Origin: Terriglobia bacterium
Lineage (GTDB): Bacteria > Acidobacteriota > Terriglobia > Terriglobales > Acidobacteriaceae
Length of the DNA stretch: 64,000 nt
Assembly: GCA_020073185.1 (NCBI GenBank)
Contig: JAIQFT010000002.1
Coordinates: forward strand, 1 to 64,000
Direction of reading: 5' to 3'
In this document: piece by piece, positions 9,818 to 52,942 of the stretch
Numbering within the stretch: the first letter of the stretch is position 1
How the letters are laid out: each line of letters starts with the position of its first letter
Translations under genes and position numbers: made by a program
The notes under the pieces: generated by a model
What the model saw: only the letters and a program-made list of their open reading frames with translations
What the model was told of the DNA's origin: nothing
The model's database searches: none

Positions 9818-9919
9818 GGTCCTTGGTCTCCTTTTGTTCTTGTCGCGGTGTGTGAATTGCCTGTGTCGCAATGTTTCAGATACAACAGCACTGCTTGGCC
9901 GACTCCCACCCTCCCTGCT

Positions 9920-10402
9920 TCATGGCTGCCGATACGCCTGCTGTAAGTGTTGGATGTCAATTTTGTCCATCGCAAGCATTGCCCTGATAACTCGATTCGC
10001 TTTTTTCGGATCAGGGTCATTCATCAGCTTGCCCAAAGCGGTAGGGATGATTTGCCAGGAGACGCCATACTTGTCTTTCAGCCAGCCGCATCTGCTTTTT
10101 TCTCCGCCGGCAGAAAGCTTCTCCCACAGCTCATCCACTTCTTGCTGCGTCGCGCAGTTCACGAAGAACGATATGGCCGGCGTGAAAGTGAATTGTGGGC
10201 CGCCGTTTAAGGCCATGAAATCTTGCCCATCGAGCTCGAAGGTCACCGACAATACCGTTCCCTTCGGTCCCGGCCCTGCTTCTCCACAACGGCTGATGCT
10301 GGCAATTTTCGAGTTCTTGAAAATAGAAGTGTAGACATTCGCAGCTTCCTCAGCTTTGCCATCGAACCACAAGAATGGGGCGATTTTTTGCATATCGTTC
10401 AT
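9920..10402 (-). CDS. VOC/PhnB-like (3-dmu-9_3-mt) family protein
   Basis: A 160-residue protein of the glyoxalase/bleomycin-resistance superfamily, PhnB-like branch. It starts with QKIAPFLWFDGKAEEAANVYTSIF, continues with VTFELDGQDFMALNGGP and ends with KYGVSWQIIPTALGKLM, which are the family hallmarks. Members are small metal-binding or degenerate enzymes whose substrates are mostly unknown. The Cys in NCATQQEV and CGWLKDKYG are not family-defining. The gene precedes the DUF4760-like gene on the same strand by about 100 bases, so they may be cotranscribed. Confidence 0.88.
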   Translation of the reverse strand: MNDMQKIAPFLWFDGKAEEAANVYTSIFKNSKIASISRCGEAGPGPKGTVLSVTFELDGQDFMALNGGPQFTFTPAISFFVNCATQQEVDELWEKLSAGGEKSRCGWLKDKYGVSWQIIPTALGKLMNDPDPKKANRVIRAMLAMDKIDIQHLQQAYRQP

Positions 10403-10472
10403 CTCCTTTGACGAGCACTGCAGACGACGTGACGCGGCCTGATTAACTCTTTGGCCTGCTGGTGAGCGCTGT

Positions 10473-11534
10473 CTATGCCGCCTTTTGTGGCACCGGTGTC
10501 TCTCCGGCGAGGGCCTTGGTAGAGACCTCGTCCCGCGTGGCCGCCTGGAACCACCCCGGATAGAGCGGCGCCGGTGCCGTCATCGTGTCCAGTTCCGCTA
10601 ATTCGGTCGCGTCTAAGGTTACGTTCAGTGCCCCGAGATTGTCCTCCAGTTGCGCCGTCTTGCTCGCCCCCAACAAGATCGTGCTCACGAACGGCTTTGC
10701 CAGCATCCAGGCCAGCGCGACCTGCGCGACGGTAGCACGATGTCCTGCGGCGATCTTCTTCATGCGCTCGATCAAGGCGTAACCACGCTCCACGTCGACA
10801 GGCAGGAAGTTGGACTGAGCGATACGCCCGCCGCCGCCGGTCGGATCCTGGCGCGTATACCGTCCGCTCAGGAACCCGCTCGCCAGCGGACTCCACACTA
10901 CGATCCCGATGCCCGCGTCGTGGCAGAAGGGTACGACCTCGTGTTCGATATCGCGCCCCACCAGTGAGTAGTACATTTGCGCCGCGACGAACGGCGCCCA
11001 GCCGTACTTCTCCTGGATCCCGCGGAATTTCGCCGCCTGCCACGCCGACAGGTTGGAGTACCCGACGTAGCGGACCAGGCCGCGCTGCACCAGGTTGTCG
11101 AGCGCGCGCGCCGTCTCTTCTTCCGGTGTGAATGGGTCGGGCTTATGAATGGAAAGCAGATCGAGGTAGTCGGTGCCCAACCGTCGCAGGCAGGCCTCGG
11201 CCGCCGACAGGATGTACCCGCAGGATGCGCCCGCACGCGTCACGGCATCGCCCGAACGGAAGCCGATCTTGGTCGAGATGATGACGTCCTTGCGGCGCTG
11301 GCCGAGCGCGCGTCCCAGCATCTCCTCCGACTGACCGCCGGCATACATGTCGGCCGTGTCGAAGAAATTGATGCCGGCGTCGAGCGCGCACTCGATCAGC
11401 GCGCTGGCCTGCTCCTGGCCGGTCTTCCAAACCGAGGCCATCGGATCGTCCGCCGTGGCCTTGCCAAACGTCATGACGCCGAATGAGAGCCTTGACACAA
11501 TCAATCCTGTCTTGCCCAGATGTGCATACTTCAT
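10473..11534 (-). CDS. Aldo/keto reductase
   Basis: A 353-residue NADP-dependent aldo/keto reductase of the YajO/voltage-channel-beta-like group. The catalytic tetrad is visible: Asp in FFDTADMYAGG, Tyr in the same motif, Lys in VIISTKIGF and His in LLSIHKPDPF. The C-terminal GASKTAQLEDNLGAL binds the NADP phosphate. ATG 11534 begins the conserved MKYAHLGKTGLIVSRLSFG start; upstream in-frame codons encode nonconserved sequence. Substrate unknown. It diverges from the acyl-CoA synthetase-like gene across a 318-base gap. Confidence 0.92.
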   Translation of the reverse strand: MKYAHLGKTGLIVSRLSFGVMTFGKATADDPMASVWKTGQEQASALIECALDAGINFFDTADMYAGGQSEEMLGRALGQRRKDVIISTKIGFRSGDAVTRAGASCGYILSAAEACLRRLGTDYLDLLSIHKPDPFTPEEETARALDNLVQRGLVRYVGYSNLSAWQAAKFRGIQEKYGWAPFVAAQMYYSLVGRDIEHEVVPFCHDAGIGIVVWSPLASGFLSGRYTRQDPTGGGGRIAQSNFLPVDVERGYALIERMKKIAAGHRATVAQVALAWMLAKPFVSTILLGASKTAQLEDNLGALNVTLDATELAELDTMTAPAPLYPGWFQAATRDEVSTKALAGETPVPQKAA

Positions 11535-49146: not shown

Positions 49147-49166
49147 GGTAGTGGGTCAATTTCCGG
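49147..49166 (+). repeat. Partial inverted copy of the 74-bp intergenic repeat
   Basis: GGTAGTGGGTCAATTTCCGG differs by one base from the reverse complement of part of the repeat at 51531-51604. It stands just past the minus-strand methyltransferase gene, in the opposite orientation to the two full copies. Confidence 0.55.
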
Positions 49167-49263: not shown

Positions 49264-49866
49264 TTAGGTTTTCCGCTGGCCTACTCCGGCAAAGAAGTCG
49301 CCAAAAAAGAAACTGACCAGCTTCCCGCCTACTGGTATTCCATAGTGCTGCAGTGCAGCGACGAAATTTTCCGCTGTAAAACGATTTTCCTTAGGATGCT
49401 TGAACAACGCTCGGTAGACCCATCTGTCGAGCGCTTGTTTTGAGACTTCCTCAAAAACGAAAATGCCGCCGGGCTTCAACACTCGCCGGACCTCGCGAAT
49501 CGCGTCCTCCCAGGCAGGCACATGGTGGATGACGCCGAAGTCGAACACAGCATCGAAGCTCTGGTCGGGTGCCTGAATAGCGGTTACGTCTCCGACAGAG
49601 ACTTCGGCGCGACCCGCATGGAGTAAAATACGCTTTTGCGCACGCGCGACCATTTGGGGGTCCAGATCGATACCAGACACCTTGGCCGCGCCGAACCGCC
49701 CGAGAATGATTTCCAGTCCGAAGCCTTGGCCACAGCCAATCTCAAGTGCTCGCTTACCGTCCAGACGACCTGCCATGCGAAGCAGGGGCGGGGCCTCATA
49801 GAACCTTTGCACCATCCGGCGAGCGGGGTTGTTGAGCAACATCTTTTCGATGACATTCAGCTGCAT
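49264..49866 (-). CDS. Class I SAM methyltransferase
   Basis: A 200-residue methyltransferase with motif I ALEIGCGQGFGLEIIL (about residue 35-50), motif II VSGIDLDPQMVARA, and motif III/IV VFDFGVIHHVPAWEDAIREVRRVLKPGGIFVFEE. The N-terminal helix MQLNVIEKMLLNNPARRMV is short. Catalysis is likely, but the substrate is unknown. It is the third gene of a minus-strand operon; the start overlaps the end of the previous gene by 10 bases. Confidence 0.88.
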   Translation of the reverse strand: MQLNVIEKMLLNNPARRMVQRFYEAPPLLRMAGRLDGKRALEIGCGQGFGLEIILGRFGAAKVSGIDLDPQMVARAQKRILLHAGRAEVSVGDVTAIQAPDQSFDAVFDFGVIHHVPAWEDAIREVRRVLKPGGIFVFEEVSKQALDRWVYRALFKHPKENRFTAENFVAALQHYGIPVGGKLVSFFFGDFFAGVGQRKT

Positions 49867-50666
49867 GATGCACTTCCGGATGGGTCAGGTTTAACTGCTG
49901 GGGTTTTTGCCAAAACAAAGCACCCAACAAAAGGTGTGATACGAAGCTCATAAGCCACCTTGAAACCGGCCTGACTTCCCACGTTGAGCCACTCCCGTCG
50001 CGAAAAGAAATGCAGGGCTCCCGGCCCATACGCCAGAAAGTTTTTCCAGTCTCGCAGGTGTTCAACCAGCACGACGCAGCCGCTTGGTTTCAGGGCGCGA
50101 CCCACCTCGCGGAAAAACTCCAGCCTCGCCTCCTGCCTGCGCAATTCGTGCGCGACGAAAATCAGGAAAACGGTGTCACATTCACGGTCTTTTAAGGGCA
50201 AAGCCTGCGGATCGGCTTTTTCGGACGCAGCGGCTGTCTCAATGTGGTGGCGGGCACGTTCAATGGACGGCTCGCTCATTTCCGAGGAAACGTAGATGTC
50301 CAGAATTCTGCGCCGCGCGGCCGGGAACAGTCGAATCAGCGCTTCGCTGGTCTGATCCAGGCCGGCATGGATATTAGCCCAGCTGACCGGATTTCGCTTC
50401 ACCACTGCCGCCAACCAGTTCCATTGATACAAACGTGAGCGATCGTAAATGTAATGGGACACCAGCAAGGAGGACACCGCCCAAAACGAAGCAATGGCGG
50501 AACCTAGCATGACCGCAAGACGAATCGCTGCCGGAGGAGAGAATCGCACCAGGAATAGCACTGCGATCAAGTCAAGAACCAACGCTGCGGCGTAAAAGTG
50601 CCAGTTGTACAAAAAGATCTGCCACACACCGCTAAAGCTGCTAGGTCGGTTGTTGGCGGCGTGCAT
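49857..50666 (-). CDS. Membrane-anchored methyltransferase-like protein with altered motif I
   Basis: A 269-residue protein. Two membrane helices (about 22-43, 46-72) precede a methyltransferase-like fold. The usual glycine-rich SAM loop is replaced: after RRRILDIYVSSEMSEPSIER no GxGxG is present, although downstream motifs fit the fold (DTVFLIFVAHELRRQEAR, LKPSGCVVLVEHLRDWKN). It may be a degenerate partner or a distinct subfamily that uses another ligand. It overlaps the next gene by 10 bases and follows the DUF2071 gene by 4 bases, which defines an operon. It is the most unusual gene of the block. Confidence 0.7.
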   Translation of the reverse strand: MHAANNRPSSFSGVWQIFLYNWHFYAAALVLDLIAVLFLVRFSPPAAIRLAVMLGSAIASFWAVSSLLVSHYIYDRSRLYQWNWLAAVVKRNPVSWANIHAGLDQTSEALIRLFPAARRRILDIYVSSEMSEPSIERARHHIETAAASEKADPQALPLKDRECDTVFLIFVAHELRRQEARLEFFREVGRALKPSGCVVLVEHLRDWKNFLAYGPGALHFFSRREWLNVGSQAGFKVAYELRITPFVGCFVLAKTPAVKPDPSGSASCS

Positions 50667-50670
50667 CTTG

Positions 50671-51432
50671 TTAGGCGGTCACAGCCTCGCGCACTCCGCG
50701 TCTCCACCGGTACGAGACGTTCGCCAGATGGAAAGCACTGGCCAGAATGGGATGCGCGCTGGCGAACGGTTCCTTTTCGATAAATGTATTTTGCAGGACC
50801 TCCACACGGATCGTCTTTGGGTCCCAAGCCTGGCGCACACCTTGGACGCGGACGATGGAGTCGGTTTCCTCCTCATAGTCGAAGGTAAAGGGCAAAGGCC
50901 CCGCGAATTTGCGGGCCACCTGCAGGTTCGAGAACGGGGAGTCTTGTGGCAGAGGCGCGGGTTCGTCGGCTAAATGCGCGCGCACATGCAAGTCCGCTTC
51001 TCCACTGGGCGTGTGAATCTTGATCTCTAGCAGGCGATCGTTCCAGCAATAGTCCACATCAGCTTTTCGATATCCGTAGTGCGTGAGTCGATTGCCCCAC
51101 CGTACCATGAAATTGCTGTCTGTGTCGCTGCGTAGAATTCGTAAGCCTCGGAGTAGCTTTCCTGATCGTGTTCGGTAACGCGTAAAGATTCTGTAGCCCG
51201 TCAAAAAGAAATCTCTGCCGACTAGCCTTGGCATGAACCTCGGTCGCATGTTCCTCGTCTGCACCATGGCTATTGCCAGAAAACCATAATTTTCGTAAGT
51301 GTCCAGAACCAAGCCTGGCGGCATCAGCGGTCGCAAGATCGTGTCGGGGAAGGCGTATGTAAGGACCAAGACGTGCTCGAAATACGCCTGCATTGGCAGG
51401 GGATGCCTTTTTAGAAACCGAAGCGCAGTCAT
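50671..51432 (-). CDS. DUF2071-like protein
   Basis: A 253-residue protein of the DUF2071/COG3361 type: residues 28-65 with the PPGLVLDTYENYGFLAIAMVQ segment and 100-160 with a RLTHYGYRKADVDYCWND segment. The fold is a beta-rich acetoacetate-decarboxylase-like barrel, and function is unknown. ATG 51432 is the natural start. It is the first gene of a three-gene operon with two methyltransferase-like proteins, and diverges from the metallo-beta-lactamase-fold gene. Confidence 0.8.
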   Translation of the reverse strand: MTALRFLKRHPLPMQAYFEHVLVLTYAFPDTILRPLMPPGLVLDTYENYGFLAIAMVQTRNMRPRFMPRLVGRDFFLTGYRIFTRYRTRSGKLLRGLRILRSDTDSNFMVRWGNRLTHYGYRKADVDYCWNDRLLEIKIHTPSGEADLHVRAHLADEPAPLPQDSPFSNLQVARKFAGPLPFTFDYEEETDSIVRVQGVRQAWDPKTIRVEVLQNTFIEKEPFASAHPILASAFHLANVSYRWRRGVREAVTA

Positions 51433-51530
51433 GGATGTAATTCCACGAGACTATGATTGCACGGCAGCTATTCCTGTTGGACTTTGCTTTCGGAATCCCT
51501 CCACAGCAGCACTTGGGGCTAGATTCATCC

Positions 51531-51604
51531 CGAGTCACGGGCCACCCGGAAAATGACCCACTACCCTAATCCTTCCACACTTGGCGAAATTCCTGCATCG
51601 GTGG
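51531..51604 (+). repeat. 74-bp intergenic repeat, copy A
   Basis: A 74-base segment beginning CGAGTCACGGGCCACCCGG and ending TCGGTGG. Aligned without gaps to copy B at 52869-52942 it matches at 62 of 74 positions by my count. It stands 112 bases upstream of the metallo-beta-lactamase-fold gene. Part of it recurs inverted at 49147-49166. No hairpin dominates it, so it may be a regulatory or mobile element. Confidence 0.8.
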
Positions 51605-51716: not shown

Positions 51717-52856
51717 ATGATCGACTGCAACCAGGATGGCCGCGGAACCGGCCGCTCGATGCCGTTTTCACGACGGAGTTTTCTCGCCAAGACTTCGTGT
51801 TTCGGCGCGCTTTATGCCGTGGCCAAGCTGATTCCCTTGCCGGCCCTGGGGGCGGTATTGGAGAGCGATTCGCGGGTGTCCCAAACGCCGATTGTGGCCA
51901 AGGATTTTGCGTCGGTGCGCAAGGTGGGGAATGGATTGTACGCAACGATTTCCGACCCCTCGAAGGGCAATACGACGCTGTGCAACGGCGGCTTCCTGGT
52001 GGGAAAAGACGGGGCGCTGATGATTGAGGGATTCGCCACGCCGGTGGGCGCGTCGTTTCAAATGGATGCTTTGCGTTTGGCGAGCCCGGTGCCGGTAAAG
52101 GCCGCGCTGGACACGCACTATCATTTCGACCATTCGATGGGAAATTCGTTTTATGGAGCGAACGGAATACCGCTCTGGGCGCATGCGGCGGCGGCGAAGC
52201 GGATTGTCGAGAATTATTCGCCGCTGCAGGGAGCGGACAAGGCGGCGGTGCTCGGCCCGTTTGAGAAGCGGGTGCAGGACGCCAAGTCGGAGACGGTCAA
52301 AGCGCACGCGCAGAGCGACCTGAATGCGATCACCGGAGTCTTCACGATTGCCAACGCCAGCGTTCTGGCGCTGCCCAATCACCCGCTCGATCCGGTAAAG
52401 CTGCCGATGACCATCGATCTCGGCGGGGTCTCCGCAGTGCTGGAATCCCACGCCGGGCACTCCGGAACGGACATTATTGTGAACGTGCCGGAACAGAATG
52501 TGGTGTACACCGGCGATTTGCTGTTCAGCGGGTGGTATCCGGTCTGCTTTGACGAGAAAGCGACGATTTCAGGCTGGCGCGAAACATTGAAGAAATTTGC
52601 CGCGCTCGATAAGGACACGCTGTTTGTGCCGGGACACGGACAGATCTGCGGACAGGAAGGGATCGCGCAAATCCGCGAAGTGTTCGATGACATTGCAGGA
52701 CAGGCGGAGAAGATGTACCACGCGGGAGTTCCGGCGGAGGAAGCGCAGCACCGATATGTCGTACCCGAAAAATTCAAGAATTTTCCGGTCTTTGCGTGGG
52801 GATTCACCATCGGGCCGGCGATTACCAAGCTGTACGCGGAGTGGCAGGTCAAGTAG
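51717..52856 (+). CDS. Tat-exported metallo-beta-lactamase-fold hydrolase
   Basis: A 379-residue protein with a twin-arginine signal (PFSRRSFLAKTSCFG, residues about 16-30). The MBL fold has the metal motif DTHYHFDHSMGN (HxHxDH), the later His in SHAGHSGTD, Asp in VYTGDLLFSG and His in VPGHGQICGQ. MBL enzymes hydrolyse many esters and lactones, so the substrate is unknown. ATG 51717 follows AGGAGGAG. It is bracketed by copies A and B of the 74-bp repeat, and an FKBP gene follows. Confidence 0.9.
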   Translation: MIDCNQDGRGTGRSMPFSRRSFLAKTSCFGALYAVAKLIPLPALGAVLESDSRVSQTPIVAKDFASVRKVGNGLYATISDPSKGNTTLCNGGFLVGKDGALMIEGFATPVGASFQMDALRLASPVPVKAALDTHYHFDHSMGNSFYGANGIPLWAHAAAAKRIVENYSPLQGADKAAVLGPFEKRVQDAKSETVKAHAQSDLNAITGVFTIANASVLALPNHPLDPVKLPMTIDLGGVSAVLESHAGHSGTDIIVNVPEQNVVYTGDLLFSGWYPVCFDEKATISGWRETLKKFAALDKDTLFVPGHGQICGQEGIAQIREVFDDIAGQAEKMYHAGVPAEEAQHRYVVPEKFKNFPVFAWGFTIGPAITKLYAEWQVK

Positions 52857-52868
52857 CCGTTACTTGGC

Positions 52869-52942
52869 CGAGTCACGCCCGATCCGGAAATCGGCCCACT
52901 ACCCCAATCCTTCCACGTTTGGCGAAATTCCTGCGCCGGTGG
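52869..52942 (+). repeat. 74-bp intergenic repeat, copy B
   Basis: A second copy of the 74-base repeat, 84% identical to copy A, starting 13 bases after the stop of the metallo-beta-lactamase-fold gene and ending 36 bases before the FKBP start. The CCACTACCC and GGCGAAATTCCTGC blocks are exactly conserved between copies. Confidence 0.8.

Follow-up and report, generated by a model that had tools for sequence, protein, structure and literature searches.

What is the role of a putative membrane protein that has the fold of a class I methyltransferase and an altered motif I loop, encoded between a DUF2071 gene and a normal methyltransferase gene? The question is raised by three consecutive genes on the minus strand of a 64,000-nucleotide (nt) stretch of a Terriglobia bacterium genome (contig JAIQFT010000002.1), analysed here as a whole and called the window. 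The genes, in the order DUF2071, ALT (the altered protein) and MT (the normal methyltransferase), are the following.

50671..51432, minus strand: DUF2071 gene (253 aa), identified by Pfam PF09844 at 57.3 bits (gathering cut-off 27), by an AlphaFold model and by a match to 3c8w_B
49857..50666, minus strand: ALT, methyltransferase-fold gene (269 aa), identified by Pfam Methyltransf_11 at 37.7 bits (cut-off 21.2), covering profile positions 19-94 of 95 only, by an AlphaFold model and by a match to 1vl5_C
49264..49866, minus strand: MT, soluble class I methyltransferase gene (200 aa), identified by a full-length match to Methyltransf_11 at 86.7 bits

The three genes described as overlapping by the first-pass annotation, which was made from the sequence alone, are real, but the only overlap, of 10 nt, is between ALT and MT, and 4 nt separate DUF2071 from ALT. 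Its assignments of a DUF2071 protein, of a two-helix membrane protein with a methyltransferase-like fold and of a normal methyltransferase all agree with the present analysis, in which the last has the canonical motif I LEIGCGQG. The answer developed below, which we favour tentatively, is that ALT may be an active, atypical membrane-bound enzyme that belongs to a so far undescribed operon and has a lipophilic compound as its substrate.

ALT: predicted fold and a rebuilt motif I loop

The AlphaFold model of ALT (predicted local distance difference test score, pLDDT, 79.3), built on an alignment of six sequences, shows the seven-stranded Rossmann-like arrangement of class I methyltransferases and superposes on 1vl5_C with a Z score of 17.4 and a root-mean-square deviation (rmsd) of 3.3 over 146 residues. 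The best Foldseek match has an E value of 9e-10 and a template modelling (TM) score of 0.44 by query length. A Kyte-Doolittle scan detects two hydrophobic segments at the N-terminus, each corresponding to a helix in the model, and this helix pair is probably a membrane anchor. The elements of ALT that enter the discussion are listed below.

50475..50597, minus strand: two hydrophobic N-terminal helices, residues ~24-42 and ~46-64 (model helices 22-41 and 46-76)
50346..50375, minus strand: motif I loop, residues 98-107, NIHAGLDQTS
50298..50315, minus strand: strand 2, residues 118-123, RRRILD, ending in D123
50139..50153, minus strand: AHE-R motif, residues 172-176 (H173, E174 and R176 each in 32/32 sequences)
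50040..50063, minus strand: EHLRDWKN motif, residues 202-209 (E202 in 32/32; H203, D206 and N209 each in 31/32)

The glycine-rich loop of ALT had first been read as RRILDIYVSSEM. In the model, strand 1 comprises residues 95-100 and strand 2 residues 118-123, and the alignment of the ALT family profile with YcgJ (1xxl) sets nihaGfD opposite DIGAGAG; strand order and alignment together identify RRRILD as strand 2 and NIHAGLDQTS as motif I. Both the AlphaFold strands and the alignments of hidden Markov models (HMM) thus reject RRILDIYVSSEM as the loop, because it spans strand 2 with its normal ribose-binding aspartate. The idea of an altered loop holds at a different place, further upstream in the protein: RRILDIYVSSEMSEPSIER is misplaced, whereas the true loop is non-canonical and conserved as such.

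Residue conservation was counted in 31 aligned homologues, including the window's own ALT, the rows not being independent of each other (L073 and L074, for instance, are close relatives). The motif [DE]xGxGxG of class I methyltransferases is replaced throughout by xxxxGxD: residue 98 is acidic in none of the 31 sequences, glycine is found at neither position 100 nor position 104 (0/31 each), and the second glycine alone is kept, G102 and D104 forming a G-x-D loop in every aligned homologue. D123, at the end of strand 2 and in the usual ribose-binding position, is an aspartate in 31/31. The loci L098-L101 stand outside this table; the loops of L098-L100 read alike by eye, and L101, a partial locus (G1184), lacks the loop. 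When canonical motif I is sought with a permissive pattern, 5 of 32 ALT, 4 of 4 MT and 0 of 4 BtaA-like sequences match; conservation is judged here by the column counts instead.

Conservation extends to other polar residues. Besides D104 and D123, the residues E132, H173, E174, R176, E202, N209 and H219 are each found in 31/31 sequences, and N21, Y74, D75, H203 and D206 are also invariant or nearly so. A specific altered loop that is kept across three phyla, together with invariant His/Glu/Asp/Asn clusters, argues for a working site rather than for decay.

Linkage with DUF2071

ALT was searched for in 200 genomes of the order, 396 of the phylum and 379 of the class (partly overlapping samples) and in 395 Bacteroidota genomes, each sample being a capped draw that includes its centre genome and in which a limited number of candidates per genome was fully scored (at most six in the Bacteroidota counts for ALT and DUF2071); a pattern scan of species genomes and a plasmid search contributed five loci and six records, respectively. 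These searches found ALT in 16 genomes of Acidobacteriota, in 17 of Bacteroidota and on 6 plasmids of Streptomyces; the examined loci number 36 (16, 17 and 3, respectively, three of the six plasmid records being included). Matches in G063 and G086 (L008 and L009), which are low-scoring and have no DUF2071 gene within 1.5 kb, were not counted as ALT.

The immediate neighbour of ALT is DUF2071 in 35 of the 36 loci, including one fragment and two genes split over two frames (L044 in G057 and L100 in G1217). In the exception, L054 (G238), ALT is itself split over two frames. L098 and L100 also have a split BtaA-like gene; such splits may reflect either assembly error or decay. Moreover, among the 395 Bacteroidota genomes the profile of the ALT-linked DUF2071 subfamily matches exactly the 13 that contain ALT, centre genome included, and the genome of the window has a single match to this profile and a single match to ALT. 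In Acidobacteriota, Bacteroidota and Streptomyces alike, DUF2071 and ALT are paired more often than chance would allow.

The proposal of an undescribed modification complex at the membrane is therefore retained as far as a conserved gene complex of DUF2071 and a loop-altered, probably membrane-anchored fold is concerned. No account of the operon was found in the searched portions of the literature on DUF2071, DUF3419, DoxX, BtaA and related subjects, a search mostly outside subscription journals; the literature on DUF2071 is sparse, a single paper within the same search naming the family.

The DUF2071 protein is predicted with confidence to adopt the acetoacetate decarboxylase (ADC) fold. Its AlphaFold model (pLDDT 86.9) superposes on 3c8w_B with Z 17.9 and rmsd 3.6 over 208 residues, and in the structural search 12 entries with the ADC fold score Z 15.7-17.9, the first one outside that fold family scoring Z 6.3. 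The protein thus shares fold and Pfam family with 3c8w, Swit_4259 and MppR, and differs from the ADC enzymes in having no conserved Schiff-base lysine: among 31 homologues no well-covered column exceeds 69% lysine, and the column that reaches 69% is residue 8, near the N-terminus. An earlier paper likewise remarks that the DUF2071 family has no Schiff-base lysine (PMC4520260). The classical acetoacetate decarboxylase mechanism was rejected on this ground, the fold being retained. Scanning the sequences of the PDB with the DUF2071 profile yielded no ADC and four weak matches, which are designed proteins by name.

A sister family of ALT was also encountered, comprising a second match in G125 (L010) and the loci L102-L111, none of which was counted as ALT. 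Like ALT it has a hydrophobic N-terminal region (judged by eye), an altered motif I, here DLHIGTYR, and the motifs THE[IL]P and EH-D-N; unlike ALT it has no DUF2071, DoxX or four-helix (4TM) gene in flanks of up to 1.5 kb, and it scores 59-70 bits against the ALT profile. Besides L010, it occurs in ten genomes, belonging to a single genus, among the 379 sampled from the class, and also carries VDCWN and EHG-D-HNY motifs.

Exchangeable partners and origin of the operon

The further partners of the pair vary between lineages. They were assigned with profiles of our own, Pfam having been run on examples only (for DUF3419, on three copies). In Bacteroidota the 4TM protein follows ALT in 17 of 17 loci and a DoxX-like protein precedes DUF2071 in 16, the remaining locus starting near a contig edge; a Pedobacter species, for example, has the order DoxX-DUF2071-ALT-4TM. 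Of the 16 acidobacterial loci, nine contain 4TM and four MT, never together; in the three that have neither, two loci are broken or partial and the third is L044 with its split DUF2071. A DUF3419 (BtaA-like) protein, detected with a four-sequence profile, is present in 7/16 acidobacterial loci, 1/3 Streptomyces plasmids and 0/17 Bacteroidota loci; we take DUF3419/BtaA to be a family of 3-amino-3-carboxypropyl transferases with a role in betaine-lipid synthesis. One Streptomyces plasmid has the complete order DoxX-BtaA-DUF2071-ALT-4TM and two others have ArsR-DUF2071-ALT-4TM, and in L099 and L100 the same five genes are reshuffled (DUF2071-ALT-4TM-DoxX-BtaA) and still stand together. The 4TM and DoxX proteins also contain hydrophobic helices; 4TM gives nothing above the Pfam cut-offs (three copies) and no NCBIfam match (two copies).

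The four MT-bearing loci, those of the window, G148, G115 and G206, have no DoxX-like, 4TM or DUF3419/BtaA-like partner. Every one of the four MT orthologues adjoins ALT, all in acidobacterial loci. The profile built from these four recovers, at an E value of 1e-30 or better, three of them and no others among the 200 genomes of the order, all three adjoining ALT. The suggestion that DUF2071, the altered protein and the methyltransferase are linked therefore holds for the pair and, for MT, within one branch (3/3 MT genomes of the order), MT being largely unlinked in relatives: 32 of the 36 loci have no MT beside ALT, and 4 have one. When ALT and DUF2071 are concatenated, the resulting tree places the MT-form loci in two groups, with the window and L044 joining L051 at weak support (0.63); MT may have joined the operon once or twice. 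A CMAS-type methyltransferase in L015 and L069, at 27 bits to the MT profile, was not counted as MT.

A BtaA-like protein thus belongs to the operon in some loci and is absent from the window's locus. The genome of the window has no match to DUF3419 (PF11899) in a search in which G110 was positive, so that the known BtaA-BtaB betaine-lipid pathway was rejected for this genome. A further search of this genome, again with G110 positive, detected no close 4TM; a search for DoxX, with no match in five genomes, included no positive genome and so shows little. On contig 11 of this genome, a distant relative of 4TM (2.5e-14) lies beside YndJ (PF14158) and DCC1-like oxidoreductase genes (L079:6458-8944), in a row that also includes a regulator-like gene, presumably of the GbsR type. 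This row suggests a wider family of such membrane modules.

Genes outside the core set were also noted. In L060 a fatty-acid desaturase gene (9856-10860; PF08557 sphingolipid Delta4-desaturase domain and PF00487) overlaps the operon's DoxX gene by 4 nt. Regulators adjoin the operon in several places, namely a TetR protein in L049, a helix-turn-helix (HTH) protein with a WCX domain in L058, and ArsR on two Streptomyces plasmids. In a metagenome-assembled genome of Flavobacteriales (L069:5438-12680) the neighbours of the operon are the CMAS-type methyltransferase, a DCC1-like thiol-disulphide oxidoreductase, one more Pfam DUF2071 protein, a second DUF2071-like protein (23 bits, own profile only) and, on a weak match, a protein resembling short-chain dehydrogenases; a regulator-like neighbour we take, by eye, to be GbsR-like.

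The operon was likely gained horizontally, as suggested by its base composition and by its patchy presence in relatives. Its slice has a guanine-plus-cytosine (GC) content of 55.5%, below all 310 slices of the same size in the window (median 61.9%), and the GC content at third codon positions is 62-64%, compared with 79-80% in two neighbouring genes; the gene on the operon's other side (51717-52856) has 59.3% GC. In the order sample, 9/200 genomes matched the ALT search, two of which are not true ALT, and no match occurs in G020, the only further genome of the window's genus among those listed. The operon is flanked by an inverted repeat of 20 nt, 95% complementary, found by repeat search.

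49147..49166, minus strand: one arm of the inverted repeat
51546..51565, plus strand: the other arm, within a 75-nt element

The 75-nt element (51530-51604) and its direct repeat (84%) at 52868-52942 stand upstream of two plus-strand genes, and a partial inverted copy (49147-49166) stands at the far end of the operon. The 18-nt core has three copies in the window, allowing up to three mismatches, for 0.02 expected. Either a repeat dispersed over the genome or the trace of an insertion may account for it.

A possible role for ALT and its alternatives

In the scheme that we propose, the window's locus would be an acidobacterial, pared-down form of an accessory operon that is conserved around a core of DUF2071 and ALT. 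In ALT, the two helices would tether a domain of methyltransferase fold to the membrane; in this domain the strand-2 aspartate may be kept for the ribose of an adenosyl cofactor and the methionine end of the pocket may be rebuilt by the G-x-D, AHE-R and EH-RD-N elements. It would probably use S-adenosylmethionine (SAM) or a SAM-like ligand for a reaction other than ordinary methylation, possibly aided by a metal ion; the substrate would be a lipid or some other lipophilic molecule, on which DUF2071, an ADC fold lacking the Schiff-base lysine, would act as well. The remaining genes would be a lineage-specific decoration: DoxX, 4TM and sometimes a BtaA/DUF3419-like protein in the common form, the normal methyltransferase in the window's form. 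Here we infer the enzymatic role, the cofactor, the metal, the lipophilic nature of the substrate and the direction of the chemistry alike; the lipid part is suggested by lineage-specific neighbours, namely DUF3419, the sphingolipid-type desaturase of L060 and the CMAS-type methyltransferase of L069.

The closest comparison is with RquA. As published, RquA is a methyltransferase homologue in which the strand-2 aspartate is kept and the remaining SAM motifs are disrupted; it forms rhodoquinone with SAM as the donor of the amino group and needs Mn2+, and no gene is reported in that paper as genetically linked to rquA (PMC9814641). On that basis, the class I fold, the kept aspartate and the disruption of the other SAM motifs are common to RquA and ALT. 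What sets ALT apart is its G-x-D loop, the pair of helices at its N-terminus and DUF2071 as an almost invariable neighbour.

Several observations weigh against an active enzyme of this kind. ALT is about equally similar to many class I methyltransferases (Z 15.6-17.4 over the 50 best rows), so that the fold by itself does not pick a function, and the TM scores by query length to the top methyltransferases, among the matches listed, are modest (0.42-0.55). The Pfam match to ALT begins past the region of motif I, which is also compatible with a loss of SAM binding. ALT is not RquA, scoring 18.9 bits against the RquA model NF038261 (cut-off 175). Finally, lipid-type neighbours are found in a minority of loci only, and a DoxX-like protein does not by itself point to lipids.

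Alternatively, ALT could be a SAM-dependent methyltransferase of the ordinary kind whose motif I has diverged; the operon would then methylate a membrane compound, and MT would add a second methylation in some lineages. We regard this reading as unlikely, though it is the best of the alternatives. The fold, the invariant strand-2 aspartate and the Methyltransf_11 score above cut-off are all in agreement with it; the best NCBIfam model is of the UbiE type (3.3e-6), yet at 26.6 bits for a cut-off of 158.35. The loop argues in the opposite direction, as the acidic residue and two of the three glycines are gone and an aspartate is present in the loop in 31/31 homologues, which is a conserved swap and not drift.

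Less probable again is a stress or detoxification module, in which the DoxX-like and 4TM proteins and an ADC-fold binding protein would handle a reactive aromatic or quinone and ALT would be a non-catalytic sensor or binding subunit. The variety of adjacent regulators (TetR, WCX-domain HTH and ArsR), the DCC1-like oxidoreductase in L069 and the patchy presence of the operon (13 of the 395 Bacteroidota genomes) would suit such a module, but the invariant His, Glu and Asp clusters of ALT look catalytic and the DUF3419 and desaturase neighbours suggest biosynthesis.

The model of the first-pass annotation, in which the altered fold regulates its active partner, is the least probable of the readings considered here for ALT. 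ALT would then be a catalytically dead protein that tethers or regulates MT, as METTL14 is the inactive partner of METTL3; the 10-nt overlap of the two genes, the confinement of MT to the side of ALT and the lack of a canonical motif I in ALT are consistent with it, but 32 of 36 ALT loci have no adjacent MT orthologue and still keep the same polar residues invariant. The restriction of MT to four acidobacterial loci thus argues that ALT is not chiefly a regulator of MT, a role that may be secondary within that four-member branch; for ALT an enzymatic function, and not a regulatory one, is the most likely.

A role in defence is not favoured either: a single PADLOC model, mad2, matches MT (1e-22, positions 261-414 of 492), the DUF3419-like protein (1e-6) and ALT (2.4e-4), apparently only over the methyltransferase part of the model; DUF2071, 4TM and DoxX have no PADLOC match, phage records yielded no match at an E value of 1e-8, and the two IMG/VR stretches that fit the peptide pattern encode no relative.

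Returning to ALT as an atypical membrane-bound enzyme, a wider form of this reading appears unlikely at present. In it, ALT would define a separate class of enzymes that sit at the membrane, use SAM or a SAM-like cofactor without methylating and have a G-x-D cofactor loop. ALT would then build a membrane compound with an ADC-fold partner lacking Schiff-base chemistry and an exchangeable SAM enzyme (BtaA-like or methyltransferase) in Acidobacteriota, Bacteroidota and Streptomyces. The compact operon of four or five genes, which stays together across three phyla despite changes in gene order, gives the orphan families DUF2071 and 4TM a shared pathway. If it is true that ALT uses SAM without methylating, it would be one more non-methylating enzyme of the methyltransferase fold.

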